Below are positions 35,093 to 64,000 of a DNA stretch of 64,000 nt, piece after piece. Position numbers and translations under genes: made by a program. The notes beneath the pieces were generated by a model. It made no database searches. It was not told where the DNA came from and saw only the letters and a list, made by a program, of their open reading frames with translations. Positions within the stretch are counted from its first letter, which is position 1. Each line of letters starts with the position of its first letter. This DNA is from Catenovulum sediminis (GTDB lineage: Bacteria; Pseudomonadota; Gammaproteobacteria; Enterobacterales; Alteromonadaceae). The stretch lies in assembly GCF_007289895.1 (NCBI RefSeq), contig NZ_CP041660.1:1054001-1118000 (forward strand). The letters run 5' to 3'.

Positions 35093-35715
35093 GATTCATA
35101 CAAATCCGAGCTGGTCACCCAAATGTGGTCCGGTAAACTATTTTCGTTTTTCAGTTTTTGTAAATATTTAACCCACTTTAAAATCACTTTAGGTTGCACA
35201 TAATATGCTGCTTGCCATTTAACCATCGCCTCTAGGCCTACTGATATCATCTGCACGATATCCGGATATTGATTTGCCAAATCGACAGCCTTTTGAATCT
35301 CAGCGCGGTTATTATCTTCGTCACCCAATTCATGATTAACATTATTTTGGCTCCAAGCATTTTGACATTGTATCCATGTACCCAACATGACATACATTTC
35401 AAAACCCGGATTCTGCTTTTTCAATTGACTAATTGCTTCAACAACCCGTTCTGAGTGCCCGCCTCCCATGGTTTGGGTGCTCAGCAATTTAACCCCCATT
35501 GCTGAGAGAATTTGCATGTCTTCTTTTATTTCTTCGATTTCAGGCAACTGATTACGATTCTGGGTGCGATGGCCATTGTAGGTATAAGCCAAAGCCTGTG
35601 GGTTAGACAACAACTGCTGTGGACTTGTTGTACTGAATAGTTGTTGTGCGAAGCTGTAATGACATAATGATGTTAATAAAAATGAGGCACAAAGCCTTAC
35701 AATAGCGCGTTTCAT
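35044..35715 (-). CDS. GH17-like protein, N-terminal part with signal peptide (frameshifted fragment)
   Basis: ATG 35715 is preferred because it opens a signal peptide (MKRAIVRLCASFLLTSLCHY, cleavage after SFAQ) with AAAGG upstream. The body has the GH17 pattern: AYTYNGHRTQN, EIEEIKEDMQILSAMGVKLL, YVMLGTWIQC, and VGLEAMVKW, where the Glu aligns with the acid/base of the canonical VGNE. The protein is exported. If catalytic, it would cut beta-1,3-glucan, consistent with the GH16 and CBM56-like modules elsewhere, but the missing nucleophile in the C-terminal part argues for caution. The final residues after DLYESW are out of frame. Confidence 0.72.
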   Translation of the reverse strand: MKRAIVRLCASFLLTSLCHYSFAQQLFSTTSPQQLLSNPQALAYTYNGHRTQNRNQLPEIEEIKEDMQILSAMGVKLLSTQTMGGGHSERVVEAISQLKKQNPGFEMYVMLGTWIQCQNAWSQNNVNHELGDEDNNRAEIQKAVDLANQYPDIVQMISVGLEAMVKWQAAYYVQPKVILKWVKYLQKLKNENSLPDHIWVTSSDLYESWEAVPTFTIQVTCLN

Positions 35716-35916
35716 CTTTAGACCTTTTGTTGTAATTAATATCCATTGCTTTACCACGCTGTAAAGGCTTTAAGAACACAACCTGCCCCCTACAATCAGT
35801 TTTTTGCTGGTCGTGGCATAACTCAACTGGTAACATCAAATAGAGTAATGAAATCGCTTTCACAAAACAACAAAAGAATGCCATTTATAACAATTTTAAC
35901 ACAGGCTACTAACCAT

Positions 35917-37267: not shown

Positions 37268-40200
37268 TTAATCGGTCTCTACAGGCCTTGTTTTTTGTAA
37301 CGCGTCAACTAACAACACTAGTTTGTTTACAACTGTGTTAACCACTTCAGACATCAGTGATTGAGAATACATTTGTTGACCGTATTTCCATTCAATCACA
37401 AGCTCCTCCTGTACAATATTAGCAATACAGAAAAACTGAACATCACGCTCATTATCTGGGTGCGCCCAAGTACTACCTGCACCAATACTGTCCAATTGCT
37501 GCCTTAAAGGAGAAATATTTTGCGCTTGTTCCTCTGCTTTGCCTGCATAATTTAAGGTAATATTAGGCTTTGGAATATCTCCCATTACCTGCTGTACTTG
37601 TGAATTTTGATGATAACATTTTAGCAAGCTATAACCACTTCCCTGATTAGGGAGACTGGCAATTTGTTTGTCGATAGCTGAGAAAGTACTCACCATATCC
37701 AACTCGTGCGGTTGAGCCTGTAACATCAACAGACGATCTATCGACAACCAGCCGACAGTGCGCGACAAATCCACGTTATCCTGCAATGCCAAATTTCGCC
37801 CTGAATCAATTACCTTCATTGACAACCAATCACCTTTAGCAAATTCTGAAACACTTTGTGTAACTGCTGCAATAAGCACATTCACAAATGTAGTCCCCAA
37901 CCGGGCTACAGCATTTTCTAACAAATACTGCGTGTATTTATGCGGTAATACGGCTGTTACGGTTGTTTCCGTGTCGAGTGTATTCTTTTGTTTATCCGTC
38001 GCAATATCACTTGGAATGGCCGCAACACCCTGCCAAGGCAAGGTTCGCCAATATTCAATTTCGCTATTCATTTCTGGTCCGTTAACATATTGCGATAACA
38101 GATCCAGCCAAGCGGGAACTGACATGGTTTTTTCGGGCAGCCTATATGTTTGCCCCTGAACCAGCGCTTGGTAACAATTAAAAAGGTCCTCCATCACGAC
38201 ATCTGTAGAATAACCGTCGGTTAATAGGTGGTGAATTCCCCAACCGATAACACTCCCATTTTCGCCTAAGTTATATACATCAATATGAATTAGTGCCTGT
38301 GATAATAAAGGCTGCTTTGCAGCATTATCCGCCTCACGCGGTGAACTCCCCTGTGTTGATTCGACAACACTTTTTTCAATTGCACTGATTTGCTCTACCG
38401 TTGACAGCGCAGCCAAATCAAACGATTTAAAGGCAACCTGCACTTGCTCCACAGGTAAATATGTCTGTTGCCATCCATTCTCTGTATGTGTAAAACAAGC
38501 CCGTAAAGCATCGTGATGCGCTAAGACTTGATAAAACGCTTGCTGCAATAATTTATCATCAATTTGATTTTCAAAATCTAATATTGATCCAACGTAACCC
38601 CAACTGGGTTGCACTTTGATATTATCTAAGAACCAATGCTGAGAAGCACTTAAGGGCACCTCACCAACAATCAAGGTTTGTTGGTTATTTTGTTGTGGAG
38701 TGTTATTTTCCGCCCCGTTCTGAAGATGGCTATCTTGTGCATCAGCATTGAGTAATTCCGCGATACTTTGATAGCGGAAGAAATCGTTCACGGAAAACTG
38801 AAAACCAAACTTTTTAAGGCGACTAACCAGTTTTAATACCAATAATGAGTCTCCGCCTACGGCAAAAAAGTTATCGTTTAAACCAACTTTCGGCACACCT
38901 AATACGTCTGCGTAAATAGTACAAATCTGTTTTTCCAGGTCACTTTGAGGCGCCTGATAAACAGAGGTTTGGATATTATTATTCTTATTATCAGCAAGAT
39001 ATTGGTTGGTATAAGCATATATTTTATCGACTTGGTTTAAGGTGCTTATCTCTTCCAAAGTATTAGCGTAAAGAGAAGTTTCTTTTTGGTATTTTACTTT
39101 GGGTGCTTGTTGTTGCACGTTCTCTAGATTTCCTTCGTCTTGACCTTTTTCTTGACTCTCGTTCGCAACTAAATTTTGCTCTGTTTGCAAACAAACTGCT
39201 TTTGCAACATCTACCACCAATAGATTTTTAGCTGTGATTGTATGATTTAATTCGGCTGGCTCTGCACCGAGAATAAGCGTTAAAAATTGTTTAGCCGGTA
39301 AATTTCTACTGGACGCAACAAACTGCAATTCAATATCTGTACAGTCATTGTTATAGGCATATTCAGCTAGAGCTCTAATCATCGCGTATTCAACACCCCG
39401 TCCCATTGCCCGGCAACTCAACATAAAGTCGGTTAATGTCAGGTACCTCTGATTAATTTGACCAAACATCAAACCTACTTGTCCATAATCACCAAAACGA
39501 TCGGATACGGTCACTATCCATGCTGATTTTTGTCGGTTGTTCAGATACTGCTTAATGTCATTTTCATAATATCGCCTAGTGGTAAAGTTAAATTGATTTG
39601 TACGTAAACTCAATTCACTCGCACGTGCAAGATCTTGCGGCATTAAACGCTCCACTTTAATATTCAAGGCTAAGCCTTCAATAAAGCTGCCTAAGCTTTG
39701 GTGTGATTGCTGCAGGTTTTTTCGTTGCTGATTTTGTTGATAAAATTCTGTTCTTTGGAGACCATCAGTCTCCCCCGGCTTTTCATCAAGTGACCAGATA
39801 TGTTGTAAAAAATGCGGAATAGATTGTGTTCTTTTGGGCACTTGTAAAGTTAACACCGCGGGACAATGCGCTTTGACTTCAGCGCACTGAACATCATCAT
39901 CATCAATAAAGACCATACTGTCTAGTGACAAGTTTAGCTCAGTTGCTAATGCTTTGATATTATCGGATTTAGCTTGCCAATTTACCTTTGCGGCAACAAT
40001 ATGTTTCATTTGCAACACCATATCTGGCTGCTGCTCAAATACCGCAGCAACATCTTGCGGGTTATTTTTACTACACAAACACAGTAGCACTCCGCGCTGA
40101 TATTGTTCCAACATAAATTGTTGCAACATTTTAAACTCTGCCGTTACTTTGATACCATGCGGCCCTACTTCCCCACAGATGCCTTGCCACAATGTATTGT

Positions 40201-42337
40201 CACAATCTAAAATTATCACTTTTACTGCTGGGTTAAGGGTCGCAAACATTGCTCTAAAGATATTGCTCGCTAACGCCGTATATTGTTTATCGGTATACGG
40301 TTTAGTGGCAACAAGCTCAGGATTACTTTCGTAATAATCATCAACTGGATACCTAAGCCCCAAGACCTGACGCGTGCATATGGTTAAGTTATCACTGTTT
40401 TTTGCCAATGTTTGCCAATTAAACTCAATAGACTGGCAAACAGCCAACATTTTTTCATCCGCCACTGATTGAGGTGACAGAGGGCAAATCTGCACAATAA
40501 ACTGGCCACTGTGCTGCTGGCAACATGCTAATAACGCGGTTATAAATGCTTCGCTGTTTTTTTGTAAGCTACTCAATAGACGGTCTTGCCCCAACCAATC
40601 TTCAAATCGCACCAGAAAAACATTACAGCCACCTTCGTTTAAGTGTGTTTCACTGCGACTATCCAACAATTGCTGAAAGCACTGGTTATAAGGGGCAAAG
40701 TTTAAATTTAACGGGCATCCTAGTTTATCAGCCAAAAATGACAATGTGTCTGCTAAAGGCTCTAGCGTATAAGTACCACTTAACACCACTGGCAGTACTT
40801 CTTGAGGTTGTATTTGCGGTCCCAAAACCTCCAACCGTTGAGCGGTTACCGCTTTGTTCTCATTTTCTATCAACATTATTTGCCCCAACGGGCTTGTGAG
40901 CACCACAACCAGTGCTGAATCATAAAGTTGTGATGGTTGTGCAGCTTGGGCTACTTCACAACCTAAACGCGCAAAATGTTGTACGGCCAGCACCATATCT
41001 TGCACAACAAAACTAAAGTGACTTAATTTTATCCCGTTTGCGGCATGCCATTGTGCTTTTTCAAATAATTGTATTTTCATATTGTCTGCTGAAGCCAGCA
41101 CAGACAATTTACCACCGACGCCTTGATCTTGCTGATGCTCTTCTTGTATGGACCAACCAAAAATTCGATTGCTTTGCCAATTCGCTTGCTGCACCTGATT
41201 AACAACCGCGCCATAACCATAAAATTGTAGTTCGCTAGCCTGTTTTACAACTTTTTTGGATACTGGTATTGATGCTGTATCGGGTATCTGGGCATTTATC
41301 TCGAGCAACTCAACTAAGCCAGCGTCCGTATCTAAAAACGCGACAAGTTGCCCTTCAAACAGGACGGCTGGTGTCGGCTTGCTGATGAGCTTCGCGCCTA
41401 ATTTTTCGAAGTATTGAATCGCTGAGTTTAAATTTTCTGTCTGATAGCAAACGTGATAAAAACCAATATCCCGACTGCGTAAGCTGTCGACTTGCGCACC
41501 TTGCACGAGCTCGATACGCATCCCCTCTGCAGCCTCGAACATACATAAGTTAGCTTGCTGTTTTTCATCCCAGACAATTTTACTTTGCGATTCAATATTA
41601 AACATCTCACTGACCAGTTTAATGCTGTGCTCAATATCATCACAAGCAATGCCAAGATGATGGAATTCAAGTGCAGGCACTTGTTTTGCTAAAGGCAGCG
41701 GTGGCATCAGCTTGTTAACTTCTATGTCCGGTTGAGCGGCCATCATTTTGAGAATGTGTTGTAAATCTTGTAACATTTGCTCGACGGTTTCAGCCACAAA
41801 CAGGTCTGTACTGTATTGAATAGACAATTCAGCGCCTTGTGCATGTTCTTCAATATTAAAAAATAGATCGAATTTAGAGACTCCCTCGCCACTGCGCTCA
41901 ACAGGCCGGCTGGAGATATCAAGTCCTTGTACCTGCCACAACTCCTGAGGTGCATTTTGTAATACAAACAAAACCTGAAAGATAGGCGAATAGCTTTGAT
42001 CCCTATGTGGACATAGCTGTTCAACCATCTTATCAAATGGGACTGCCTGATGATTGAACGCTTGCAAGCTATTATGTTTTACCTGTTTGAGCAATTGCTC
42101 CACTGTCATATCAGGGTTCACTTGGCTGCGTATCGGTAACGTATTGACAAAAAAGCCAATCAAATTTTCTAGTATTTTTTGCTGACGGTTTGCCACCGAT
42201 GTACCAATTACGATATCTGACTGCCCAGAGTAAGCAGCCAATAGTATATTTAAGGCAGTTACGCAAGTCATATAGAGAGTGCTATCGGCGCCTAGACTAA
42301 ATGTTTTTAGCTCCGTCATCAGTGTTTCCGGCAGCAC
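37268..42337 (-). CDS. NRPS-3, C-terminal part: C (end) - VOC - VOC - FkbH - PCP - E-like (frameshifted fragment)
   Basis: This is the 3' section of one 12.5-kb gene. Residues about 1-215 finish a condensation domain begun in the previous fragment (IVIGTSVANRQ, GFFVNTLPIRS). Two glyoxalase-fold VOC domains follow: about 220-352 (LEFHHLGIACDDIEHS, methylmalonyl-CoA-epimerase-like) and 365-505. About 515-1045 is an FkbH-type HAD-IIIC domain with ILDCDNTLWQG (about 708-718), SMVFIDDDDVQCAEV and RTNQFNFTTRRYY. FkbH enzymes load glyceryl units from 1,3-bisphosphoglycerate on carrier proteins. A PCP follows (FFAVGGDSLLVLK, about 1160). The last ~450 residues are an epimerisation-type domain (SASQHWFL, HHLLTDGYS, RTVGWLS, NYAGK). 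There is no adenylation domain in this module and no thioesterase. The frame is lost at CCCCC 42352-42356 (plus strand). Confidence 0.82.
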   Translation of the reverse strand: MLPETLMTELKTFSLGADSTLYMTCVTALNILLAAYSGQSDIVIGTSVANRQQKILENLIGFFVNTLPIRSQVNPDMTVEQLLKQVKHNSLQAFNHQAVPFDKMVEQLCPHRDQSYSPIFQVLFVLQNAPQELWQVQGLDISSRPVERSGEGVSKFDLFFNIEEHAQGAELSIQYSTDLFVAETVEQMLQDLQHILKMMAAQPDIEVNKLMPPLPLAKQVPALEFHHLGIACDDIEHSIKLVSEMFNIESQSKIVWDEKQQANLCMFEAAEGMRIELVQGAQVDSLRSRDIGFYHVCYQTENLNSAIQYFEKLGAKLISKPTPAVLFEGQLVAFLDTDAGLVELLEINAQIPDTASIPVSKKVVKQASELQFYGYGAVVNQVQQANWQSNRIFGWSIQEEHQQDQGVGGKLSVLASADNMKIQLFEKAQWHAANGIKLSHFSFVVQDMVLAVQHFARLGCEVAQAAQPSQLYDSALVVVLTSPLGQIMLIENENKAVTAQRLEVLGPQIQPQEVLPVVLSGTYTLEPLADTLSFLADKLGCPLNLNFAPYNQCFQQLLDSRSETHLNEGGCNVFLVRFEDWLGQDRLLSSLQKNSEAFITALLACCQQHSGQFIVQICPLSPQSVADEKMLAVCQSIEFNWQTLAKNSDNLTICTRQVLGLRYPVDDYYESNPELVATKPYTDKQYTALASNIFRAMFATLNPAVKVIILDCDNTLWQGICGEVGPHGIKVTAEFKMLQQFMLEQYQRGVLLCLCSKNNPQDVAAVFEQQPDMVLQMKHIVAAKVNWQAKSDNIKALATELNLSLDSMVFIDDDDVQCAEVKAHCPAVLTLQVPKRTQSIPHFLQHIWSLDEKPGETDGLQRTEFYQQNQQRKNLQQSHQSLGSFIEGLALNIKVERLMPQDLARASELSLRTNQFNFTTRRYYENDIKQYLNNRQKSAWIVTVSDRFGDYGQVGLMFGQINQRYLTLTDFMLSCRAMGRGVEYAMIRALAEYAYNNDCTDIELQFVASSRNLPAKQFLTLILGAEPAELNHTITAKNLLVVDVAKAVCLQTEQNLVANESQEKGQDEGNLENVQQQAPKVKYQKETSLYANTLEEISTLNQVDKIYAYTNQYLADNKNNNIQTSVYQAPQSDLEKQICTIYADVLGVPKVGLNDNFFAVGGDSLLVLKLVSRLKKFGFQFSVNDFFRYQSIAELLNADAQDSHLQNGAENNTPQQNNQQTLIVGEVPLSASQHWFLDNIKVQPSWGYVGSILDFENQIDDKLLQQAFYQVLAHHDALRACFTHTENGWQQTYLPVEQVQVAFKSFDLAALSTVEQISAIEKSVVESTQGSSPREADNAAKQPLLSQALIHIDVYNLGENGSVIGWGIHHLLTDGYSTDVVMEDLFNCYQALVQGQTYRLPEKTMSVPAWLDLLSQYVNGPEMNSEIEYWRTLPWQGVAAIPSDIATDKQKNTLDTETTVTAVLPHKYTQYLLENAVARLGTTFVNVLIAAVTQSVSEFAKGDWLSMKVIDSGRNLALQDNVDLSRTVGWLSIDRLLMLQAQPHELDMVSTFSAIDKQIASLPNQGSGYSLLKCYHQNSQVQQVMGDIPKPNITLNYAGKAEEQAQNISPLRQQLDSIGAGSTWAHPDNERDVQFFCIANIVQEELVIEWKYGQQMYSQSLMSEVVNTVVNKLVLLVDALQKTRPVETD

Positions 42338-44151
42338 TGTACTGAGCGTCGCCCCCGAGTGCTGCGAATTTGAGGTCTGGGTTTATCTGTCGGTAGCTTC
42401 AGTCGATTCGGTATGTCGCTGAGTGTTTCGCGCCAAAAGTTAAGGCCTTGCGTGTATTCTTCGCTCTGTAACCAACCTCGCTGCCAATATGCATAGTCTG
42501 CGTATTGAATTGCCAAGTCCGCTAGCGGCTGTGGTGCATTGTTTATATAAGTCTCGTATAGCTCATTAAACTCTTTGATAAAAACACTATTAGACCAACC
42601 GTCAAACGCAATATGATGAATCGCGCAAACTAAAACATAATGCTGCGGGTGCAAGCGAATCAATTGCGCCCGCAACATTAAATCATTACTTAAATCAAAT
42701 GGTTTATCTATTTCTGCCAACATCGCACGCTTAAGTTCACACGCTTGTTTGGTTGTCGCATAGCCAGATAAATCGACTAATGGTAAATGAAACTCACTGA
42801 CATTTCGTATCTTTGTTTCGGGCTCTCCACTATCAGACTGTATAAACAGGGTGCGCAATACCTGATGACGATGAATGATTGTTTCGATACTTTTTTCAGC
42901 CGCTTGAATATTTAAATCACCTTGCAGATCGAGTGCTATGGCAATGTTGTATTCAACACTGCTGCCTTCAAGTTGATCGAGCACCCACAAGCGTTGCTGA
43001 CTATACGACAATACCCCTTTTTCGCTGTTATTCGCTTTTACAATTTCGACTATATGACTGACATTAGAGCTGTCGATGATCAGTGCCAAGTCTTGAACGT
43101 TAGGCTGCTCGAAAACGGCACTGACGTTCACGTCAACATTGAACACGGTTTGAATCTCCGTTACTACACGTGCAGCCAACAAAGAATGCCCCCCTAAATC
43201 AAAAAAGTTGTCATAAATACCAACTTGATCAATTCCAAGTACACTTTGCCATATCTCACACAGCTGTTTTTCTGTTGCATTGCGCGGCGCTACATATTCT
43301 GCCTGCACTTGAGTCACTTCATATGTCGCCAGCTTGTTGCGGTCAATTTTGCCATTGCTTGTCAACGGTAATGTTTCCAGTACAACAATCGCACTGGGCT
43401 GCATATAGTCCGGTAAGCTGCTTTTTAAGTTGGCTTTTAGTGTGTCTTGTAAGGTTGCCCATTCACTTTGTGCACTGTGTGTCGCAACATAAGCCACCAG
43501 TTGTTTTTGTGCTGAATTAACCAGCACGGTACTGGCAGTAATCTCGGCATGCTTTTGCAGCTCACTCTCTATTTCGCCCAGCTCTATCCGGTAACCTCTC
43601 AGTTTGATTTGATGGTCTGCCCGTCCAATAAATTCAAGTTCGCCATTTTCCAGCCATCTGACTAAGTCGCCTGTTTTATAGAGCTTTTCCCCTCTTTCTT
43701 GAGCAAACGGGTTGTCGATAAATCTTTCTGCTGTCAGTTCCGCTCTGTTTAAATAGCCTCGTGCTAAACCAACGCCGCCGACATACAGTTCTCCAATAAC
43801 GCCCGTGGGCAGTAAGTTTTGCCTGCTATCTAGGACATAAACCTGCATGTTGTCTATCGGTTTGCCAATACTCAGCACTTCGCTGCTGGCGTTAAATTCG
43901 TTGATACTCGTACAAACTGTCGTTTCTGATGGGCCATAGGCATTGTAAAATCGTCTTCCTTTTGACCATTGCTGAGCCAAGGTCAACGGACAGTTTTCAC
44001 CGGCTACTATTAAGTCGGTTACCCCTTGCCAGTTGTTGATGTTTAATGCCGGTAACAGTGCCGGGGTAAGGTCGCATGGCTCACACCCATTTGCTGTATC
44101 GACGCTTCCAGTTCGTTCGGTGAGGCGATTGTGTTTTGTTTTACTAGGCAT
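42319..44151 (-). CDS. NRPS-3, middle part: end of A, PCP, start of C (frameshifted fragment)
   Basis: Coding starts effectively near 44065. The first ~30 listed residues are out of frame. It contains the C-terminal half of an adenylation domain (NAYGPSETTVCTS, GELYVGGVGLARGYL, KLRGYRIELGEIES, LTSNGKIDRNKL), a PCP (FFDLGGHSLLAARV) and the first part of a condensation domain with HHIAFDG. Entry is at GGGG 44063-44066; the two intact copies of this sequence have GGGGG (50856-50860 and 54204-54208), so one base is missing here. Exit is at CCCCC 42352-42356, where one added base gives STRGATLSTVLPETL. With both corrected, NRPS-3 is a single 4177-aa protein. Confidence 0.85.
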   Translation of the reverse strand: MPSKTKHNRLTERTGSVDTANGCEPCDLTPALLPALNINNWQGVTDLIVAGENCPLTLAQQWSKGRRFYNAYGPSETTVCTSINEFNASSEVLSIGKPIDNMQVYVLDSRQNLLPTGVIGELYVGGVGLARGYLNRAELTAERFIDNPFAQERGEKLYKTGDLVRWLENGELEFIGRADHQIKLRGYRIELGEIESELQKHAEITASTVLVNSAQKQLVAYVATHSAQSEWATLQDTLKANLKSSLPDYMQPSAIVVLETLPLTSNGKIDRNKLATYEVTQVQAEYVAPRNATEKQLCEIWQSVLGIDQVGIYDNFFDLGGHSLLAARVVTEIQTVFNVDVNVSAVFEQPNVQDLALIIDSSNVSHIVEIVKANNSEKGVLSYSQQRLWVLDQLEGSSVEYNIAIALDLQGDLNIQAAEKSIETIIHRHQVLRTLFIQSDSGEPETKIRNVSEFHLPLVDLSGYATTKQACELKRAMLAEIDKPFDLSNDLMLRAQLIRLHPQHYVLVCAIHHIAFDGWSNSVFIKEFNELYETYINNAPQPLADLAIQYADYAYWQRGWLQSEEYTQGLNFWRETLSDIPNRLKLPTDKPRPQIRSTRGRRSVQCCRKH

Positions 44152-45140
44152 AAAGTCGCTCCGCTACACAGCGCCATGGCCCATTCTGAGGTGGCGGCAT
44201 CAAAGGCCAGTGAGGCAAATTGCAATACTTTGCTGTGCGTGCTGACTTTGAATGCTTTGGCTTGCGCTTGTGCTAAGTTACATAAGCCTCGGTGCTCTAG
44301 TAGCGTCCCTTTCGGTTGACCTGTGCTGCCTGAGGTGTAAATGACATACGCTAGGTTTCGACTGCTTAACCCTTGTTTGGTTACGCTCAGGTTGTCGCTG
44401 TTTTGCTGTTGTATGTCCGCTTGGGTTTCTGCTTTATCAATTTCTATGATTCGGCTTACGCCCTCTGGTGCGCTTTGCGTATCTAATTCATCTCGTGTGT
44501 CTAGTTCTCTCTGTGCGCCTGTCGCATATCTCTGGCTCAGTTGGTGTGTTTCATTCAATGCTTCGCTGCTGATGATATAGTCCAGCTGCGCATCTTCTAT
44601 CATGTAAGTTAATCTGTCTGTCGGGTAACTCGGGTCTAATGGAACATATGCGCCGCCTGCTTTTAAAATCGCGAGTATACTCACCATCATCTCTGCTGAG
44701 CGCTCTAAACACACACCAATACGATTTTCTTTAACTGAGCGGCCTTGCTTTGTTAGGCTTTTTAAATAGTGTGCTACTTGGTTTGCCCGCGCATTCAGTT
44801 GTTGATAGCTGATGCTTTGATAGCTCTCCTGCCCTTCACAGTATAACGCGATGCTCTGCGGTGCTTGTGCAACTTGTGCTTCAAATAATTCGTGAATACA
44901 TTTGTCTGCCGCATACGCCGATTGGCTCGCATTCCAAGTCTTTAATTGTCGTTGTTGTTCGGCTGCTGGTAAGACGGACAAAACATTGTCCGATGGGTTT
45001 TGTAGTGCGAAAACCAGCTGTGACAAGGCACTTTGCATATACCCCAACACACGCTCTGCATTAATACTGGCATCCACTTGAATTTCCAGCTCGAAGGCTT
45101 GACCTAAATCGTCTACTGATAAACTAAAAGGATAATTAGT
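43201..45140 (-). repeat. Near-identical A-PCP repeat, copy A (in NRPS-3)
   Basis: This is the third copy of a ~1.76-kb A-PCP coding unit, related to 49994-51934 and 53342-55102. Between the same end points copy A is 1760 nt, whereas copies B and C are 1761 nt; the difference is the missing G at 44063-44066. Similarity with copy B continues to about 45140, into the C-domain end. Confidence 0.85.
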
Positions 45141-48100
45141 GCGTTCTTGACCGTTTAAAAATTCAATCCCGCTCATTGCTTGCTCAGCATTCTCAAAGCT
45201 AAGTGAATGACGATAGTTAAAGATAGCGCTAAATAAAGGCACGCCGCTTGCTAATCCACTACACTGCTGAACTTCTGATAACTGAGTTTGTTCGTATGGT
45301 AATAAATCTTGCAATGCATTTTGCACTTGTGCAATTAACGCTTGGACCGACATTTGCCCGGTTTTAACCCTGATAGGTAAAGTGTTTATCAACACGCCCA
45401 ACATATCCTCAGCGCCAGATGTACCTTGTAATCGCCCAGATAAGACGGTGCCAAACACCACATCGTCTCGTCCGCAGCAAGCAGCAACTACCAAAGCCCA
45501 TGCACTATGGAACAGTATCGCTGGGCTGGTATTCAGGGTTTGGCTTAAATCGCGTAACTGCTGTGCTAAATCGTGCGGCACCGCTTTTCTAACTTCTATG
45601 ATGCGGCTGCCATCTCCTTGCACATCAGTTAAATTAAACGGTGTGCAAGCTTCTTCAATATCCGATAGCATCTGAGTAAAATATACTTTTGCATTATTCC
45701 GCTTAGCCTGATGTAACCCCTGCGCAATAAATTCACGGTATGGTACCGGTGCGGATAATTGTGCAAATGAGCCTCTCTGATAAGCTGCTAGCTCTTTTTG
45801 TATAACCTCTAAACCCTGATGATCAGAAATAATATGGTGGTATCGCATAAGCACATAAAACTCGCTGGTACCTTGCTGTTCGGCTATTTGCAACGTTAAT
45901 AATGGTGGTTTAGACAAATCGAATTTGGCCTGCTGTACTTCGCACAATTGTTGCATTTTTGTCAATGCATTCTGTTCGTTGTTAATTGACAACCAGGAAA
46001 TAGCAAGTTCAGCTGTTCGGCATACCACTTGTACTGGCTGTGAAATGCCCTGCCAAATAATGGCAGTACGCAGTACGTCATGCCTTTTAATGATCTGCTG
46101 CAAGCCGTCAATCAAGTTTTGTAAGGTATCTTGGTTATTAATTTTCAATAACGAAGGTAAAATATAAGGGTCTCTGTTTGTATTCACCCGATGGTTGAAT
46201 AAGATCCCCTCTTGCAACGGCCCTAATGGATAAATATCTTGAATATTTTCAACACCACCGTCTACCTGAAAGCTAATTTTTTCAATTTCTTCATGACTAA
46301 GCTGAATGAGCGGCAACATGTCTGGTGTGATTTGATTACAAACTTCGGGTATACGATTTTCTGGCGCTTCAAATATTTCAGAATCTGAGGCTTCATCAAT
46401 TTTTTTGGCCAAATCAGACAAAACCGGTAAGGTAAATATATCTCGCGCTGTAACATGAATATTTATTTTTTGCAGTTTACTGATAACCTGGGTGACCAAT
46501 AATGAGTGTCCGCCTAACTCAAAAAAGTTGTCTGTAGCACCGACCCTATCGAGTTTTAATACGGTTTGCCATATACCTGCCAATCTTTTTTCATTCTGGC
46601 TAACCGGCTCTTGATATCCGTTTTTTTGTGAAAAGTCCGGTTCGGGCAATGCTTTACGATCAATTTTACCATTCGTATTAAGTGGCAAACTTGGCAGTAT
46701 TTCAAAAAAAGAAGGCACCATGTAGTGCGGCAAATGTGATTGCAAATATTGTTTTAACGCAATAAAATCAAGCGATTTTTCTTCCTGTGTACATACCTGA
46801 CTGAGTACCACATAAGCAACCAACATTTGCTCGCCAGTTCCACGCGATTGCTCTTTAACCATGGTCACACTATCTTTTATGGCAGGATGACTGTTGAGTA
46901 CATTTTCTATCTCTCCTAACTCAACTCTATAACCTCTTAATTTACACTGGTAATCTAGGCGACCTAAGAATTCCATATTATCATCTGCTAACAATCTGCC
47001 TCGATCACCTGTTTTATACATCCGTGGATTTTTTTGCTGTGGGTTGTAGGGATCGGGTAAAAACGCGGCATTTGTTTTTACCTCATCATTTAAATACCCT
47101 TCTGCTACACCGACACCACCGATATAAAGCTCTCCCGCAACCCCTTTAGGTACTGGTTTTAAGTAACGATCAAGTATGTAAAATCGATTGTTCTGAATTG
47201 GTTTGCCATATGGAATACTGCTTTCTTTAGATAAGTCTTTTTCTATTGGATACACATTTGACCAAACAGTACCTTCAGTTGCGCCACCTAAACTTTGCAC
47301 TTTGACTTTAGGAAAATATTTTAAACAACGCTGTGGTAAACTCACCGGAATCCAATCACCACTCATAAAAACAACACGTAAACTAGGTAATCGATAATCC
47401 GGTTGTTCTTGCTCGATAAAGTTAACAAGGTGATTAAAGGTACTGGGAACAGAATCCCAGAAGCTAATTTGCTCTGCTTGCATTAACTGCAATAATGAAC
47501 TTGGATCTTGTGCCATTTGTGCGTCAGCCAGAACAATACAAGCGCCGGCCGCCAGCCCACCAAATAAATCATATACTGACAAATCAAAACACATTGAAGT
47601 AACGCATAAAATACGATCAGCGCAATTCACTGAATACTGCTGATTAACCCAGTCAATTAAGTTAACGGCGGCATGATGTGCAATCATCACCCCCTTAGGT
47701 TGGCCAGTCGAACCAGAGGTATAAATAACATAAGCCAATTGCTGTGCATTCAGACCAATCGCTGTCGGGTCAATATTTTGTGTTGGGTATCCAGCTAATT
47801 CCGTTTGTTTTTTTGGATTGTCTAGACAAATAATCTGACGTTTTCGCTCTGGCGAAAACGTTGACTGAGCTAATGATTCCTTCGTAATAATGCACCCGAG
47901 TTGAGCAAAGGCGACCATATGTTCAATTCTAGCAACGGGATAGTCTGGGTCTAGCGGTACATACGCTCCGCCCGCTTTTAATATGCCCAGCATGCCAACC
48001 AACATATCAATCGAACGATCAATACATAAGCCTACCAGTGTACCTGGCTTAACATGCCCTTTTTCTACTAAATAATGTGCCAGTTGATTGGCTTTTTCAT

Positions 48101-49799
48101 TTAATTTTTGATAACTGATTGAATGCTCGCCACATTTCATTGCAATGGCATGCGGCGTGCGCTGCATTTGTTGTTCAAATAATTGATGAATACAATGCTC
48201 GTTTGGATAGTCTGCTGTGGTGTCATTCCATTCAAAGAGGTATTTTTGAACTTCGACAGGCGCTAAAATATCCACTGCAAACACATTTTTTGCAGGCGAG
48301 GCGACTAAGCTTTCAAGTAACTTAGCAAAACAACTTGCCATATTGTCGATTGATTGTTGGAAGAACAAATCCGTGTTGTACTCCCACTCTAGTTTGAGGC
48401 CATCTGGCCCTTCTTCTGCATGCAGAGTTAAGTCGTATTTTGCTTGTTGGTTAAGCTGATTTTCAATCGTTAAGGTTAAATCTGGCAGTGTCAGTGCCGG
48501 AACTTCATTATTTTGCAACACCAGCATAATTTGAAACAATGCACTGTGGCTTAGGTTGCGCTCAGGTTGCAATACTTCAACGATTTGTTCAAAAGGGGTT
48601 TGTTGATTGGCATACGCCTCTAATAACATTTTTTTACTGCGGTTGAGTAACTCGATAAATCCCGGCTCACCGGACAGATCTGTGCGTAATACCAAGGTAT
48701 TGACAAAAAATCCAATTAGCGGGGCTATCTCAGCTTGCTCTCGGTTAGCAACAGGGCTACCAATTACAATATCTGTTTCATTACTAAAACGAGCCAACAA
48801 TGCAGAAAACGCGGCATGCAACCCCATAAATAATGTTGCATTTTGCTTTTGGCAGATTTGTTTTAGACCTTCTAAAGTGTCCACTGATACCGTTGAATAC
48901 ACGCGATTGCCGGCAAAAGTTTGCGCTTTAGGTCGAGCTTTATCTAAAGGTAAATTATGCTCAACAGGCAGATCGACTAATTGCTCTGTCCAGTATTTAA
49001 GCTGTTGCTCTAAGACTTCTTTCTGTAAATGGTTGCGTTGCCAGTGTGCATAGTCGATATATTGTATCGCAAGGGGTTGCAAAGGGTTAGCTTGCGCTTG
49101 GCTGTATGCCCGATACAAAGCACTCAATTCATGGATTAATATTCCCATTGACCAGCCATCAGACGCAATATGATGCATACTAACTAACAACAAATATTCT
49201 TCATGCTGTTCTTTTAGAATTTGTGCTCGCAGCAATATATCTTTGGTTAAGTCATAGGTTTGCAGTGAGAAGCTTTGTGTTTGCTGGGCTAACACCTGAT
49301 GCTTTCTTTCGTCTGCGAGCGTGGATAAATCATGTACCTCTATCGCAAAATCAATCTCTGACTGTACGACTTGTATCGGTTGATCCTTGTCATTTTTAAC
49401 AAAGCAGGTGCGTAAACTTTGATGCCGCTCTACAATACTGACAAAAGCTTTGTTTAACGCTTCGATATTCAGCTGTCCAGTTAAACGTATACTGCCAGTG
49501 ATATTATAGTGGGCACTACCACCATCTATCTGATCTAACAACCACAATCGCTGCTGTGCAAACGAGAGTTCGCCCTGTTGCAACTGTCGCGCATCGATTG
49601 TCTTATGCTCTGCTGCTCGATGCTCTGTGCGACAGCTCAAATATTCCAGCAACGCTTCTTTGTGACTTTTAATCAGCGTCACGATATCGGCTGTTAATGC
49701 ACTTTTGTCAGAACGTGTTTTTAATTTACCATCTTCAACAAAAACAAAAACCCCTGAATCTGAGAGTTGTTTAATTATTTTAGTTATATTGCTCACCAT
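44043..49799 (-). CDS. NRPS-3, N-terminal part: C-A-PCP-C-A (frameshifted fragment)
   Basis: The first 60 residues resemble the small docking region before a C domain. Domain order with approximate residues: C (65-490, HHIASDG about 210), A (500-1010, YTSGSTGQPKG about 693), PCP (1060-1120, FFELGGHSLLVTQ), C (1170-1600, HHIISDH about 1325) and the first part of a second A (YTSGSTGQPKG about 1823). The specificity residues of the first A, aligned by eye to GrsA, read DLYDFSLVWK, close to cysteine codes (DLYNLSLIWK) but with Asp for Asn. The second A has DASTIAAVCK, like aromatic (Tyr/Phe) codes. The ATG overlaps the NRPS-2 stop (ATGGTGA). The frame is lost at 44063-44066. Confidence 0.88.
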   Translation of the reverse strand: MVSNITKIIKQLSDSGVFVFVEDGKLKTRSDKSALTADIVTLIKSHKEALLEYLSCRTEHRAAEHKTIDARQLQQGELSFAQQRLWLLDQIDGGSAHYNITGSIRLTGQLNIEALNKAFVSIVERHQSLRTCFVKNDKDQPIQVVQSEIDFAIEVHDLSTLADERKHQVLAQQTQSFSLQTYDLTKDILLRAQILKEQHEEYLLLVSMHHIASDGWSMGILIHELSALYRAYSQAQANPLQPLAIQYIDYAHWQRNHLQKEVLEQQLKYWTEQLVDLPVEHNLPLDKARPKAQTFAGNRVYSTVSVDTLEGLKQICQKQNATLFMGLHAAFSALLARFSNETDIVIGSPVANREQAEIAPLIGFFVNTLVLRTDLSGEPGFIELLNRSKKMLLEAYANQQTPFEQIVEVLQPERNLSHSALFQIMLVLQNNEVPALTLPDLTLTIENQLNQQAKYDLTLHAEEGPDGLKLEWEYNTDLFFQQSIDNMASCFAKLLESLVASPAKNVFAVDILAPVEVQKYLFEWNDTTADYPNEHCIHQLFEQQMQRTPHAIAMKCGEHSISYQKLNEKANQLAHYLVEKGHVKPGTLVGLCIDRSIDMLVGMLGILKAGGAYVPLDPDYPVARIEHMVAFAQLGCIITKESLAQSTFSPERKRQIICLDNPKKQTELAGYPTQNIDPTAIGLNAQQLAYVIYTSGSTGQPKGVMIAHHAAVNLIDWVNQQYSVNCADRILCVTSMCFDLSVYDLFGGLAAGACIVLADAQMAQDPSSLLQLMQAEQISFWDSVPSTFNHLVNFIEQEQPDYRLPSLRVVFMSGDWIPVSLPQRCLKYFPKVKVQSLGGATEGTVWSNVYPIEKDLSKESSIPYGKPIQNNRFYILDRYLKPVPKGVAGELYIGGVGVAEGYLNDEVKTNAAFLPDPYNPQQKNPRMYKTGDRGRLLADDNMEFLGRLDYQCKLRGYRVELGEIENVLNSHPAIKDSVTMVKEQSRGTGEQMLVAYVVLSQVCTQEEKSLDFIALKQYLQSHLPHYMVPSFFEILPSLPLNTNGKIDRKALPEPDFSQKNGYQEPVSQNEKRLAGIWQTVLKLDRVGATDNFFELGGHSLLVTQVISKLQKINIHVTARDIFTLPVLSDLAKKIDEASDSEIFEAPENRIPEVCNQITPDMLPLIQLSHEEIEKISFQVDGGVENIQDIYPLGPLQEGILFNHRVNTNRDPYILPSLLKINNQDTLQNLIDGLQQIIKRHDVLRTAIIWQGISQPVQVVCRTAELAISWLSINNEQNALTKMQQLCEVQQAKFDLSKPPLLTLQIAEQQGTSEFYVLMRYHHIISDHQGLEVIQKELAAYQRGSFAQLSAPVPYREFIAQGLHQAKRNNAKVYFTQMLSDIEEACTPFNLTDVQGDGSRIIEVRKAVPHDLAQQLRDLSQTLNTSPAILFHSAWALVVAACCGRDDVVFGTVLSGRLQGTSGAEDMLGVLINTLPIRVKTGQMSVQALIAQVQNALQDLLPYEQTQLSEVQQCSGLASGVPLFSAIFNYRHSLSFENAEQAMSGIEFLNGQERTNYPFSLSVDDLGQAFELEIQVDASINAERVLGYMQSALSQLVFALQNPSDNVLSVLPAAEQQRQLKTWNASQSAYAADKCIHELFEAQVAQAPQSIALYCEGQESYQSISYQQLNARANQVAHYLKSLTKQGRSVKENRIGVCLERSAEMMVSILAILKAGGAYVPLDPSYPTDRLTYMIEDAQLDYIISSEALNETHQLSQRYATGAQRELDTRDELDTQSAPEGVSRIIEIDKAETQADIQQQNSDNLSVTKQGLSSRNLAYVIYTSGSTGQPKGTLLEHRGLCNLAQAQAKAFKVSTHSKVLQFASLAFDAATSEWAMALCSGATLCLVKQNTIASPNELEASIQQMGVSHATLPRHCYRH

Positions 49800-52700
49800 T
49801 CTACCTCTACACCATCTGAAACCGTTTCTTTTAAAAGGTTGTTGTTTTTGTTTATATTTATTTCATCTATTAATTGAGACAAGTCGGCAATGCTTTCACA
49901 TTCAAACATGTCCTTTATCTCAAGGTTGATATCGTATTTCTGTTTACCGATAGTTAATGCTTTGACGGCCAACAAAGAATGCCCCCCCAAATCAAAAAAG
50001 TTGTCATAAATACCAACTTGTTCAATCCCGAGTACAGTTTGCCATATCTCACACAGCTGTTTTTCTGTTGCATTGCGCGGCGCGACATATTCAGCCTGCA
50101 CTTGAGTCACTTCATATGTCGCCAGCTTGTTGCGGTCAATTTTGCCATTGCTTGTCAACGGTAATGTTTCCAGTACAACAATCGCACTGGGCTGCATATA
50201 GTCCGGTAAGCTGCTTTTTAGGTTGGCTTTTAGTGTGTCTTGTAAGGTTGCCCATTCACTTTGTGCACTGTCTGTCGCAACATAAGCCACCAGTTGTTTT
50301 TGTGCTGAATTAACCAGCACGGTACTGGCAGTAATCTCTGCATGCTTTTGCAGCTCACTCTCTATTTCGCCCAGCTCTATCCGGTAACCTCTCAATTTGA
50401 TTTGATGGTCTGCCCGTCCAATAAATTCAAGTTCGCCATTTTCCAGCCATCTGACTAAGTCGCCTGTTTTATAGAGCTTTTCCCCTCTTTCTTGAGCAAA
50501 CGGGTTGTCGATAAATCTTTCTGCTGTCAGTTCCGCTCTGTTTAAATAGCCTCGTGCTAAACCAACGCCGCCGACATACAGCTCTCCAATAACGCCCGTG
50601 GGCAGTAAGTTTTGCCTGCTATCTAGGACATAAACCTGCATGTTGTCTATCGGTTTGCCAATACTCAGCATTTCGCTGCTGGCGTTAAATTCGTTGATAC
50701 TCGTACAAACTGTCGTTTCTGATGGGCCATAGGCATTGTAGAATCGTCTTCCTTTTGACCATTGCTGAGCCAATGTCAACGGACAGTTTTCACCGGCTAC
50801 TATTAAGTCGGTTACCCCTTGCCAGTTGGTGATGTTTAATGTCGGTAACAGTGCTGGGGGTAAGGTCGCATGGGTCACTCCCATTTGCTGTATCGATGCT
50901 TCTAGTTTGTTCGGTGAGGTTATTGTGCTTTGTTTTACTAGGCATAAAGTCGCTCCGCTACACAGCGCCATAGCCCATTCTGAGGTGGCGGCATCAAAAG
51001 CCAGTGAGGCAAATTGCAAAACTTTGCTGTGCGTGCTGACTTTGAATGCTTTGGCTTGCGCTTGCGCTAAGTTACATAGCCCTCGGTGCTCTAGTAGCGT
51101 CCCTTTCGGTTGACCTGTGCTGCCTGAGGTGTAAATGACATACGCTAGGTTTCGACTGCTTAACCCTTGTTTGGTTACGCTTAGGTTGTCGCTGCTTTGC
51201 TGTTGGATGTCCGCTTGGGTTTCTGTTTTATCAATTTCTATGATTCGGCTTACGCCCTCTGGTGCGCTTTGCGTATCTAATTCACCTCGTGTGTCTATCT
51301 CTCTCTGTGCGCCTGTCGCATATCTCTGGCTCAGTTGGTGTGTTTCATTCAATGCTTCGCTGCTGATGATATAGTCCAGCTGCGCATCTTCTATCATGTA
51401 AGTTAATCTGTCTGTCGGGTAACTCGGGTCTAATGGGACATACGCGCCGCCTGCTTTTAAAATTGCAAGTATACTCACCATCATCTCTGCTGAGCGTTCT
51501 AAACACACACCAATACGATTTTCTTTAACTGTGCGGCCTTGCTTTGTTAGGCTTTTTAAATAATGTGCTACTTGGTTTGCCCGCGCATTCAGTTGTTGAT
51601 AGCTGATGCTTTGATAGCTCTCCTGCCCTTCACAGTATAACGCGATGCTCTGCGGTGCTTGTGCAACTTGTGCTTCAAATAATTCGTGAATACATTTGTC
51701 TGCCGCATACGCCGATTGGCTCGCATTCCAAGTCTTTAATTGTCGTTGTTGTTCGGCTGCTGGTAAGACGGACAAAACATTGTCCGATGGGTTTTGTAGT
51801 GCGAAAACCAGCTGTGACAAGGCACTTTGCATATACCCCAACACACGCTCTGCATTAATACTGGCATCCACTTGAATTTCAAGTTCGAAGGCTTGACCTA
51901 AATCGTCTACTGATAAACTAAAAGGATAATTGGAACGTTCCTGACTAAAAATAATCTCACCGGCTACTTCAGCCTGTGTTTGAGTTTCCCATTTGTGCGT
52001 GTGCCGGTAATTTAATACACTACTGAATAGCGGTGCTCCATCCGGTATATCACTGCACTTTTGAGCCACCGCTAGTGAAGTTTGTTCATAAGGCATTAAA
52101 TCACTTAATGATTGCTGCACTTGCTGGACCAAAAACTGCGCGCGCTCTCCTTGCAAACGAACCCGAACTGGCAAAGTATTGATAAACAGCCCCAACATAT
52201 TGTCGATGTGTCCATTGTGTGTGAATCGCCCAGACAAGACTGAGCCAAAAACCACATCCTGCTGCCCGCTGCAAGCAGCGACAACCATTGCCCACGCAGT
52301 GTGAAACAAAGTAGCTACACTAATAGAATGAACTTGTGCTTGTTCGCACAAACGTTTTGCTAACTTTTCAGATAATTTGCGCCTGCATTCAACAATTTGT
52401 TTACCGTCACCCTGCACATTTAACAATCCATATGGCGCAGTACTGTCATTTATGCCCTGTAGCTGTGCGCTGAAAAATGATTCACTGTCTAATTTTTGCG
52501 GTTGCTGAACTTGCGCGATAAATTGGCGATAAGGCGCTGGTTTTTCCAATTTCTCAGCTTGCCCTGTCAGAATGAACTGAATTTCTTGCTGTAAGATCTC
52601 AAGTCCAATGTGATCAATCACAATATGATGCACTTGTATTAATGCATAATGGGGGAAATTTTCGGCATTTGTTGTGCTCTCAACTGGCTGATTGAGCTGT

Positions 52701-55700
52701 AATCTTAATAAAGGGCCACTTTCAAGATCAATTTGACATCCAAGATTACAGGTAAGCGCTTTCACTTGTTTTTCAATCAGCAAGACGTCCTGCTCATTTC
52801 GCGCTTCATACCTGTGCTTATCGATACGCAATTTTGCCTTGCGGGCAACAACCTGTAGCGGCGTTTGCAGCGCTTTCCACAAGATAGATGTTCTTAATAC
52901 ATCATGTCGGTCAATTACGATTTGCAATGCTTCGACAAAATTTTGCAACGCATCGGCACTGTCAAATTTCATCAATACCGGCATAATGTAAGGATCATAC
53001 GCTTTGTGCATCATGTGATGAAACAAAATACCAGACTGCAAAGGTGCTAATGGATAAATATCCTGGATATTGCGCATCCCACCTGAAAACCCATCTGCGA
53101 TGCGGTTTATTTCTGTTTGACTTAGTTTTACCAAAGGCAACATTTCAGGTTTAATTTGTGCACACTCAGTTGGGATCAAGTTCTCAGATAGGGTTATGGT
53201 TTCACTATCTAGAATACTGACGTGTGCTGCCAGCTCTGCAACTGTTGGTTGGCAAAATACAGTCCTAGCTTGAATGGAAAAATTTTGTTTGCGAGCTTGC
53301 GAAATCACTTGCATCACTAATAATGAGTGCCCTCCTAGGGTAAAAAAGTTGTCATAAATACCAACTTGCTCAATCCCGAGTACACTTTGCCATATCTCAC
53401 ACAGCTGTTTTTCTGTTGCATTGCGCGGCGCGACATATTCAGCCTGCACTTGAGTCACTTCATATGTCGCCAGCTTGTTGCGGTCAATTTTGCCATTGCT
53501 TGTCAACGGTAATGTTTCCAGTACAACAATCGCACTGGGCTGCATATAGTCCGGTAAGCTGCTTTTTAGGTTGGCTTTTAGTGTGTCTTGTAAGGTTGCC
53601 CATTCACTTTGTGCACTGTCTGTCGCAACATAAGCCACCAGTTGTTTTTGTGCTGAATTAACCAGCACGGTACTGGCAGTAATCTCTGCATGCTTTTGCA
53701 GCTCACTCTCTATTTCGCCCAGCTCTATCCGGTAACCTCTCAATTTGATTTGATGGTCTGCCCGTCCAATAAATTCAAGTTCGCCATTTTCCAGCCATCT
53801 GACTAAGTCGCCTGTTTTATAGAGCTTTTCCCCTCTTTCTTGAGCAAACGGGTTGTCGATAAATCTTTCTGCTGTCAGTTCCGCTCTGTTTAAATAGCCT
53901 CGTGCTAAACCAACGCCGCCGACATACAGCTCTCCAATAACGCCCGTGGGCAGTAAGTTTTGCCTGCTATCTAGGACATAAACCTGCATGTTGTCTATCG
54001 GTTTGCCAATACTCAGCATTTCGCTGCTGGCGTTAAATTCGTTGATACTCGTACAAACTGTCGTTTCTGATGGGCCATAGGCATTGTAGAATCGTCTTCC
54101 TTTTGACCATTGCTGAGCCAATGTCAACGGACAGTTTTCACCGGCTACTATTAAGTCGGTTACCCCTTGCCAGTTGGTGATGTTTAATGTCGGTAACAGT
54201 GCTGGGGGTAAGGTCGTATGGGTCACTCCCATTTGCTGTATCGATGCTTCTAGTTTGTTCGGTGAGGTTATTGTGCTTTGTTTTACTAGGCATAAAGTCG
54301 CTCCGCTACACAGCGCCATAGCCCATTCTGAGGTGGCGGCATCAAAAGCCAGTGAGGCAAATTGCAAAACTTTGCTGTGCGTGCTGACTTTGAATGCTTT
54401 GGCTTGCGCTTGCGCTAAGTTGCATAGCCCTCGGTGCTCTAGTAGCGTCCCTTTCGGTTGACCTGTGCTGCCTGAGGTGTAAATGACATACGCTAGGTTT
54501 CGACTGCTTAACCCTTGTTTGGTTACGCTTAGGTTGTCGCTGCTTTGCTGTTGGATGTCCGCTTGGGTTTCTGTTTTATCAATTTCTATGATTCGGCTTA
54601 CGCCCTCTGGTGCGCTTTGCGTATCTAATTCATCTCGTGTGTCTAGTTCTCTCTGTGCGCCTGTCGCATATCTCTGGCTCAGTTGGTGTGTTTCATTCAA
54701 TGCTTCGCTGCTGATGATATAGTCCAGCTGCGCATCTTCTATCATGTAAGTTAATCTGTCTGTCGGGTAACTCGGGTCTAATGGGACATACGCGCCGCCT
54801 GCTTTTAAAATCGCAAGTATACTCACCATCATCTCTGCTGAGCGTTCTAAACACACACCAATACGATTTTCTTTAACTGAGCGGCCTTGCTTTGTTAGGC
54901 TTTTTAAATAATGTGCTACTTGGTTTGCCCGCGCATTCAGTTGTTGATAGCTGATGCTTTGATAGCTCTCCTGCCCTTCACAATATAACGCGATGCTCTG
55001 CGGTGCTTGTGCAACTTGTGCTTCAAATAATTCGTGAATACATTTGTCTGCCGCATACGCCGTTTGGCTCGCATTCCAAGTCTTTAATTGTCGTTGTTGT
55101 TCACTTGCTCGTACGATTTGAGCGTCAAATAAGTTACGCTTGGGATCAGCAATCACAGATTGCAATAATTGAGCAAAATTCTCAGCCATATTTTCAATAA
55201 ACGCTGCAGTAAAAAGCTCAGTGTCAAACTCCCAAGTTAACAGCAATTGATTTGCAACCTCAGATACCACAAGCGTCAAATCATATTTTGCAACTGTCTC
55301 TAATGGTTTAATGCTTTCGACGGTTAAGCCAGGCAACGACAATGTTTGTTGTCGGCTATCATCTACCACCAGCAACACTTGAAACAAAGGGCTATAATTA
55401 AGATTTCGATTTGGTTGTAAACGCTCAACAACTTGCTCAAATGGTACTTGTTGATGAGCGTAAGCTTCCATTAGTGTGGATTTATTTTTTGCCAGTAATG
55501 TTAAAAAGCTTTCCTCACACGATAACTGACACCTTAAAACTAAGACATTCACAAAAAAACCGATTAAATCGGATAATTGTGGATTGGCCCGATTGGCGAC
55601 AGGCGTACCCACTACAATATCGTCCTGACCACTGTAGCGTGCCAATAACACAGAAAAAACACTGTGTAGTCCCATAAAAACAGTCGCATCATTTTGTTCA

Positions 55701-63595: not shown

Positions 63596-64000
63596 TTAAT
63601 TAGCTTTGATTTTGGGTTTTAGCGTGAGTCGCTTATTGTGAAAATTAGTCAATAGTAGGATATATTTGCCCTGATGGTGGAAGGCGATTAAATCATCGTA
63701 ATGCTGGCTCAAAACATTGCCTGATTGACCTGTTGAAATACTAAAAAGGGAGTTTTTGTCATTTTTCAAATCAATAATCTGGCGATAACTTGGACCAAAA
63801 AATTGATTGAAACGACTGTCTTCCATTAAGCTAACAGGCGCAACATTAACCGTATCGCCACCACCAGGACTTGCAATTGAGCGATGAAAGACTTCAGATA
63901 AAATGCTATCTGGCGACTTGGGAGAGTGAGGCGCTTGTATATTATCGCTTAGCGGAAAATGAGGATACTGAGCAATATGTAGTTTTGACCACTGCCATGT
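63596..64000 (-). CDS. Penicillin acylase family enzyme, C-terminal end (partial; PvdQ-like role)
   Basis: The frame is open to the window edge; the stop is at 63596. The visible 134 residues match the C-terminus of Ntn-hydrolase penicillin amidases: WQWSKLHIAQYPHFPL, then SPGGGDTVNV, PSYRQIIDL and STGQSGNVLSQHYDD near the end. The catalytic Ser/Cys of the beta chain lies outside the window. The family includes PvdQ, which removes the fatty acid from pyoverdine precursors, and acyl-homoserine-lactone acylases. A 2-bp gap to the PvdE-like exporter and a downstream FAAL-type starter fit maturation of a lipopeptide prodrug. Which family member it is cannot be told from this fragment. Confidence 0.82.
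   Translation of the reverse strand, partial: TWQWSKLHIAQYPHFPLSDNIQAPHSPKSPDSILSEVFHRSIASPGGGDTVNVAPVSLMEDSRFNQFFGPSYRQIIDLKNDKNSLFSISTGQSGNVLSQHYDDLIAFHHQGKYILLLTNFHNKRLTLKPKIKAN

Follow-up and report, generated by a model that had tools for sequence, protein, structure and literature searches.

Tandem VOC domains and an FkbH domain in place of adenylation in the last module of a Catenovulum sediminis nonribosomal peptide synthetase

The FkbH module and its closest known counterparts

FkbH domains that take the place of an adenylation (A) domain are already known in nonribosomal peptide synthetases (NRPSs). The vioprolide and corramycin lines begin with fatty acyl-AMP ligase (FAAL), acyl carrier protein (ACP), condensation (C), FkbH and thiolation domains, the FkbH module being the second, and vioprolide is the precedent both for glycerate as the unit loaded and for its attachment as an ester by the C domain (PMC8949500; corramycin paper). 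In the suomilide, dysinosin and varlaxin systems, FkbH is likewise proposed to load glycerate, there in the first module, and the glycerate is methylated and sulfonated. The consulted portions of these descriptions mention no vicinal oxygen chelate (VOC) domain. Here we describe an NRPS of Catenovulum sediminis encoded in a stretch of 64,000 nucleotides (the window; G000:C1:1054001-1118000 of a 4.87-Mb genome in two contigs). Like the vioprolide and corramycin lines it starts with FAAL and carries FkbH in place of an A domain, and we propose glycerate loading and the same ester formation for it. It differs from all the systems above in that the FkbH module is the last one, that two VOC domains are inserted in it, and that it ends in a domain resembling epimerization (E) domains. 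The tandem VOC domains are the new element.

The NRPS operon runs on the (-) strand (61869 -> 37268), and its last module starts near 43014. The C domain is divided between two frames: its first half (42343..43014; HHIAFDG; PF00668 167.6 bits, profile positions 6-228) occupies aa 380-603 of an open reading frame (ORF) at 42319-44151, and its second half (41708..42334; PF00668, profile positions 232-444) occupies aa 2-210 of the 1689-aa frame that carries the rest of the module (37268..42337). Behind it this frame encodes VOC1 (41321..41662), VOC2 (40856..41236), an N-terminal extension of FkbH (40256..40789), FkbH itself (39278..40231), a peptidyl carrier protein domain (PCP; 38747..38929, aa 1137-1197, GGDSL, PF00550 52.3 bits) and the terminal E-like domain (37304..38680). 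No AMP-binding (A) domain was found in the 1689-aa frame with Pfam and NCBIfam. The frame breaks were left unmended and all analyses were carried out on the separate pieces; searched in this way with Pfam, the FkbH model TIGR01686 and the VOC families, they yielded FkbH and both VOC folds, which bears out the C-VOC-VOC-FkbH-PCP-E-like order without an A domain given in a preliminary description of this DNA. A C domain, an FkbH match above its family cut-off, a PCP and the lack of an A domain make this a vioprolide-type module with FkbH in place of A, and the DCD and RTNQFN motifs expected of such a module are both present.

The FkbH domain matches TIGR01686 over aa 703-1020 with 282.5 bits (cut-off 146.65) and is the only FkbH match in the whole genome. 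It comprises a phosphatase part of the haloacid dehalogenase (HAD) type with the motif DCDNTLW and a GNAT-like part with the motif RTNQFN. In an alignment of 57 FkbH rows including the window's own (A6), the DCD motif, the T that follows it, the S and N of SKN and a later DD pair are invariant; no loss of the HAD aspartates is seen, in keeping with the FkbH assignment first made. Within the RTNQFN block, R, Q and both N residues are kept in all 57 rows, T in 56 and F in 52. The preceding stretch (aa 517-694) aligns with the part ahead of the HAD domain in seven further FkbH proteins; the consulted part of one study names this N-terminal extension NEX and suggests that it may help transfer glycerate units to carriers (PMC12304814). 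Other families for aa 515-1045 were considered and rejected: besides FkbH, only the related HAD-IIIC model (TIGR01681) and a sub-threshold NIF match were found. Foldseek searches with a structural model of the VOC-VOC-FkbH part (838 aa, mean pLDDT 83) returned BF1531 (3slr, E 1.2e-22, matching the phosphatase part), 3hdp, 2qh0 and GNAT acyltransferases, the last of which, we take it, arise through the C-terminal part of FkbH. By family membership FkbH is expected to charge the PCP with glyceryl taken from 1,3-bisphosphoglycerate. As glycerate lacks an amine, the bond formed by the C domain would need to be an ester.

The VOC region matches PF13669 (Glyoxalase_4) in two stretches, with 78.1 bits for the protein against a cut-off of 27; the best stretch, aa 226-334, lies in VOC1, which also matches PF00903 and, in Foldseek, 3hdp (E 9.1e-9). 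VOC1 has a complete H/E/H/E metal set, the ligand set of Escherichia coli glyoxalase I, and these residues are invariant in all 12 rows of the VOC alignment; the small VOC proteins grouped there with VOC1 share an invariant H, G, D, E, H, F and E throughout. The solved structures that the VOC profile matches best, which are also the closest solved relatives of both VOC1 and VOC2, are those of Clostridium acetobutylicum glyoxalase I (2qh0, 3hdp), an enzyme known to act on methylglyoxal-thiol adducts; it is a free homodimer, unlike the fused pair here. VOC1 scores far below the cut-offs of the NCBIfam models for glyoxalase I (TIGR00068, 21 bits against 120) and methylmalonyl-CoA epimerase (TIGR03081, 35.8 bits against 114.95); these scores make it a VOC protein outside both curated families. 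We rejected methylmalonyl-CoA epimerase as its identity on the low score and the lack of the second catalytic Glu: the column of that residue, E43, located through the E43L entry of the Streptomyces coelicolor enzyme (6xbr), holds L, V, G or I in all 12 rows.

VOC2 (about aa 368-494) gives weak matches in single-sequence searches, but its alignment with the 12 VOC domains in hhalign reaches a probability of 96.2% (E 2.6e-9). While its first half is poor in the 838-aa model, VOC2 is well modelled by AlphaFold2 from its own alignment (mean pLDDT 80; Foldseek match to 2qh0, E 1.1e-8). Only one of the four metal ligands is kept in the alignment. According to the consulted part of a study on C. acetobutylicum glyoxalase I, the active sites of that enzyme lie within single subunits (PMC5412262), so VOC1 need not borrow ligands from VOC2; by analogy VOC1 could work alone, with VOC2 as a scaffold.

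In phmmer searches the terminal domain matches E domains (PvdL chain, E 4.2e-38; gramicidin S synthase 1 chain, E 1.7e-37), and it has the HHxxxD motif of epimerization domains (HHLLTDG), but Ile stands at the Glu position of the EGHGRE motif. The E-domain model TIGR01720 (NRPS-para261) matches aa 1554-1682 with 50.4 bits, under its cut-off of 74.2. On this score and the missing Glu, a standard epimerase was rejected. Among 24 distinct E-like rows the Glu is kept in 17 and absent in seven: the window, G084, G064, G044, G019, G020 and G036, and in the last five of these genomes the Glu-less domain follows A-PCP at the protein end. In a tree of 26 rows, which leaves out G020 and G036, 16 canonical E rows form a group that does not include the Glu-less rows. 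Three thioesterase-family matches were found in the genome, of which the strongest is at C1:931649 in another NRPS cluster; none lies near the last module, the nearest being about 159 kb from the end of the gene. Since the epimerase Glu is lost and the cluster has no thioesterase, the E-like domain, judged by its position, is likely a release or hand-over domain. In glidonin, according to the consulted portion of its description, a terminal condensation domain instead of a thioesterase completes the chain, adding a C-terminal putrescine (PMC10587159); here an E-like domain stands at that point. The five genomes in which A-PCP precedes such a Glu-less end (loci L155, L157, L158-L160 and L166-L168) have Cys or Gln in place of the Glu, and at L166 a free thioesterase gene lies nearby.

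Relatives of the module and stand-alone FkbH-VOC gene pairs

We compared the module with 92 FkbH loci, made up of the best 80 of at least 296 confirmed relatives found in the GTDB collection with patterns from alignment A1 and of 12 further loci. A C domain directly precedes FkbH at 27 of the 92, which represent 25 distinct places (L003 and L054 are one place counted twice, as are L045 and L140), and we therefore rejected the idea that C before FkbH is itself unknown. The glyceryl loading and ester formation first proposed for the module gain support from the retained FkbH motif residues and the vioprolide precedent; in that respect the module is not novel. In none of the 92 loci is a VOC domain encoded in the same frame as FkbH, and at only one, L105 (Paenibacillus), does a VOC gene adjoin FkbH. 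Searches with the whole VOC-VOC-FkbH region in overlapping sets of 394, 369, 398 and 246 genomes, each containing the genome studied here, revealed no second fusion. Similarly, single-sequence scans of genome and viral contig collections gave pattern matches but no relative of the fusion, and of the 119 matching records in a plasmid collection none covers more than 80% of the query in one place. No FkbH match was found in seven other species of the genus. With no relative carrying VOC between C and FkbH in the 92 loci or the genome searches, the view that this domain order had not been described before is supported.

Among the matches listed, the closest by sequence are at a Thalassomonas locus (L066, 46%) and in two genomes of the window's family (46%); one of these two (G1157) is probably the Thalassomonas record again. 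At L066 a further NRPS protein comes after the FkbH module. Terminal FkbH modules occur elsewhere at L078 and L177, where they end in a thioesterase, and at L054 (G084), which shares the terminal C-FkbH-PCP-E-like order and the Glu-less E-like domain but has no VOC domain between C and FkbH. A different layout was seen at L175:7070-11926, where a DH-like domain, an FkbM methyltransferase, FkbH, PCP and C are joined in a single protein near a CmlA-type hydroxylase, and at L176:7059-11876, which appears to share the FkbH-PCP-C layout.

In the sets searched VOC and FkbH are fused only here; elsewhere they occur as separate neighbouring genes. A VOC profile search covering 80 of the 95 FkbH genomes found a VOC match within 2 kb of FkbH in 16; an estimate of chance made by hand from the 66 VOC matches and genome size comes to about 0.1. 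Two more genomes (G793, G923) have VOC within 5 kb. Nine of the 16 contributed rows to the VOC alignment (A2), and seven lie outside it (G341, G703, G994, G044, G084, G851 and G638), the G341 pair having been seen earlier. At the pair loci (L047-L053, L056-L058, L146-L151) the aligned VOC rows share the invariant residues. Many VOC matches elsewhere in these genomes have lower scores and could represent ordinary epimerases. The VOC-VOC-FkbH fusion thus mirrors a gene pair that recurs, and this recurrence lends indirect support to the earlier suggestion that the VOC domains might bind or rearrange the glyceryl group. Pfam identifies, among the neighbours of the pairs at L047, L048, L147 and L148, a polysialyltransferase-like gene, FlaF and acyltransferases of the MBOAT, GNAT and AAC(3)-like kinds, a hint that at these four loci glyceryl is transferred to glycans of the surface or of flagellin. 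A further VOC-FkbH pair lies between a polyketide synthase and an NRPS with a nitroreductase-like insert (L151:737-13820). None of the open-access papers searched links FkbH with glyoxalase or VOC proteins.

The synthetase operon and its surroundings

The synthetase starts with an ORF at 56653..61869 (-) that encodes FAAL-ACP-C-A-PCP, the lipid starter and module 1 (PF00501 twice, PF23024, PF00668, PF00550 twice, PF13193); its first AMP-binding stretch we take to be FAAL from knowledge of the family. According to Pfam, two proteins with TubC_N docking domains follow on the same strand, one with C-A-PCP-C-A-PCP (modules 2 and 3; 49793..56656) and one with C-A-PCP-C and the start of an A domain (modules 4 and 5; 44043..49799). 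The ORF at 42319..44151 (-), which according to the ORF list and Pfam contains the last part of A5, PCP5 and the opening half of the final C domain, has frame breaks at both ends. The A2, A3 and A5 A-PCP modules (43175-55102, (-)) are 97.3-99.4% identical in DNA over 1.76-1.98 kb, which points to recent duplication of modules. Specificity codes read by eye are DILQLGMVW for A1, DASTIAAVC for A2, A3 and A5 (that of A5 pieced together from two separate frames) and DLYDFSLVW for A4. By the specificity code table they suggest Gly, Tyr (three times) and a Cys-like residue, to be taken as a lead only.

Upstream of the synthetase lie a gene for a probable exporter, an ABC transporter with fused membrane and ATPase parts (61911..63593, (-); PF00005 87.4 bits; PF00664 24.6 bits, under its cut-off of 28), and, directly upstream of it and only a few bases apart, the end part of a penicillin-amidase family gene (63599..64000, (-); PF01804 714.6 bits) that continues past the window (L061:100-2628). 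A TonB-dependent receptor gene lies beyond it (L061:100-5775 spans both). This arrangement of amidase, transporter and TonB receptor presumably resembles the maturation of acylated precursors as in pyoverdine, in which PvdQ cuts off the fatty acyl group.

Elsewhere in the window, 25800-28082 (+) encodes a single protein that combines a GDPD part (aa 14-189) with a HAD phosphatase part (aa 547-722); the two are separated by about 350 aa in which no Pfam family matches at E 1e-4. The genome also has a second FAAL-started NRPS cluster (L062-L064, G000:C1:906000-962000), which contains the thioesterase at C1:931649.

Proposed chemistry, alternatives and implications

While the anatomy of the module is observed, we infer its chemistry. 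The last module of this lipid-started line of five amino acids would add glycerate instead of an amino acid. As a member of its family, FkbH would take D-1,3-bisphosphoglycerate, remove the phosphate and place D-glyceryl on the PCP, and the C domain would then join the peptidyl chain to a hydroxyl of the glyceryl group as an ester. VOC1, a one-domain protein part with a metal site of the glyoxalase I type, may act on the 2-hydroxyacyl thioester, by a chemical analogy: a glyceryl thioester is the same kind of group as S-lactoylglutathione, the product of glyoxalase I. Its most likely action, and the weakest step of the proposal, would be epimerization of C2 through an enediolate, turning D- into L-glyceryl. 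VOC2 would be a non-catalytic copy that pairs with VOC1 as a scaffold. The E-like domain, from its position, would release the chain or hand it on, and after export by the ABC transporter the penicillin-amidase-family enzyme, again placed in the scheme by its gene's position, would remove the fatty acyl group. We hold this explanation as a whole, from the glycerate-adding last module and editing by VOC1 to release by the E-like domain and later deacylation, only tentatively.

Several observations weigh against it. The second base of methylmalonyl-CoA epimerase is absent from VOC1 and its aligned relatives alike, which leaves only the two glutamate ligands, as in glyoxalase I, to account for any epimerase activity. 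At 91 of the 92 FkbH loci there is no VOC in the examined stretch, and C-FkbH-PCP modules in general thus do not need one. Nor is the gene pair universal: of the 80 FkbH genomes, 64 lack a VOC at this distance from FkbH (2 kb), 29 of the 80 giving no VOC match at all. Among genomes with a VOC-type match of the window protein, searches before the profile was built located it no more than 2 kb from FkbH in 7 of 11, 1 of 7 and 0 of 8, and a later search in 0 of 2. A VOC1 relative (40% identical) lies beside a LuxE-LuxC fusion in a surface-polysaccharide-like locus with no FkbH in the examined stretch (L059:6373-9265). In the tree of E-like domains branches are long and support is weak, the modules may act in an order other than that of the genes and, as assembled, a gene with two frame breaks would not yield one protein.

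Alternatively, the VOC domains could be non-catalytic and serve as a spacer or for docking, holding PCP, C and FkbH in position, after a chance recombination with a glycan-type VOC-FkbH gene pair nearby had brought them in. The degeneration of VOC2 fits this, as do the 27 FkbH loci with C-FkbH and no VOC, and a fusion could be a by-product of the two genes being neighbours elsewhere; but VOC1 keeps its four ligands and the invariant D while VOC2 has lost three of four, which suggests selection on VOC1 and makes a mere spacer somewhat unlikely. VOC1 might also be catalytic in another way, converting the C3 unit by isomerization or water loss to a lactyl- or pyruvyl-type thioester, or following a glyoxalase I route in which a 2-oxoaldehyde, bound to the PCP thiol as a hemithioacetal, is converted directly to the 2-hydroxyacyl thioester. 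Such conversions would agree with glyoxalase I as the nearest solved relative and with the missing second base of methylmalonyl-CoA epimerase. We consider them quite improbable, however: all FkbH motif residues are kept, which would make a second loading route redundant, and no link between FkbH and glyoxalase or VOC proteins appears in the literature searched.

Two further possibilities concern the fate of the module as a whole. It may not be the last in assembly; the E-like domain would then dock to a different NRPS, for instance that of the second cluster (about 910-950 kb of the same contig). Terminal E domains often act as docking donors, and that cluster, with its FAAL-like start and thioesterase, is present in the genome; yet it has a FAAL-like start of its own and lies more than 100 kb away, and the window gene ends with a stop followed by an 11-bp inverted repeat (by eye), so we regard docking as unlikely. 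The gene may also be a decaying pseudogene whose frame breaks are real and whose last module produces nothing, since the NRPS frame is interrupted twice within 1.8 kb (overlaps 42319-42337 and 44043-44151). Two other genes of the window (28152-30493 and 33905-35757; ORF list, by eye) seem to be split likewise, however, for which reason residual assembly error in the form of indels is the simpler reading. The break at 44043-44151 sits in one of the three near-identical module copies, 97.3-97.5% identical in DNA to its two sisters with one gap against each, and the motif residues are intact across the 1689-aa frame; decay is thus very doubtful.

Beyond this operon, FkbH and a glyoxalase-type VOC protein may form a recurring two-enzyme unit, in which VOC inverts or rearranges C2 of a D-glyceryl thioester through a metal-bound enediolate; the NRPS would be its fused form, with release by a Glu-less E-type domain. 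This is possible but doubtful. An editing of the glyceryl group by a VOC enzyme is a step that does not appear in the literature searched. FkbH makes glyceryl thioesters that go into polyketides and peptides and, from some of the neighbourhoods seen here, perhaps into surface glycans. The fusion points to a partnership between two enzyme families and gives a testable prediction for the pair of small proteins in 16 of the 80 FkbH genomes; this pair probably matters more widely than the NRPS does. The terminal E-type domain without the Glu hints at an additional type of chain release. If true, the proposed chemistry would add a metal-dependent step of hydroxy-acid editing to the NRPS toolkit.

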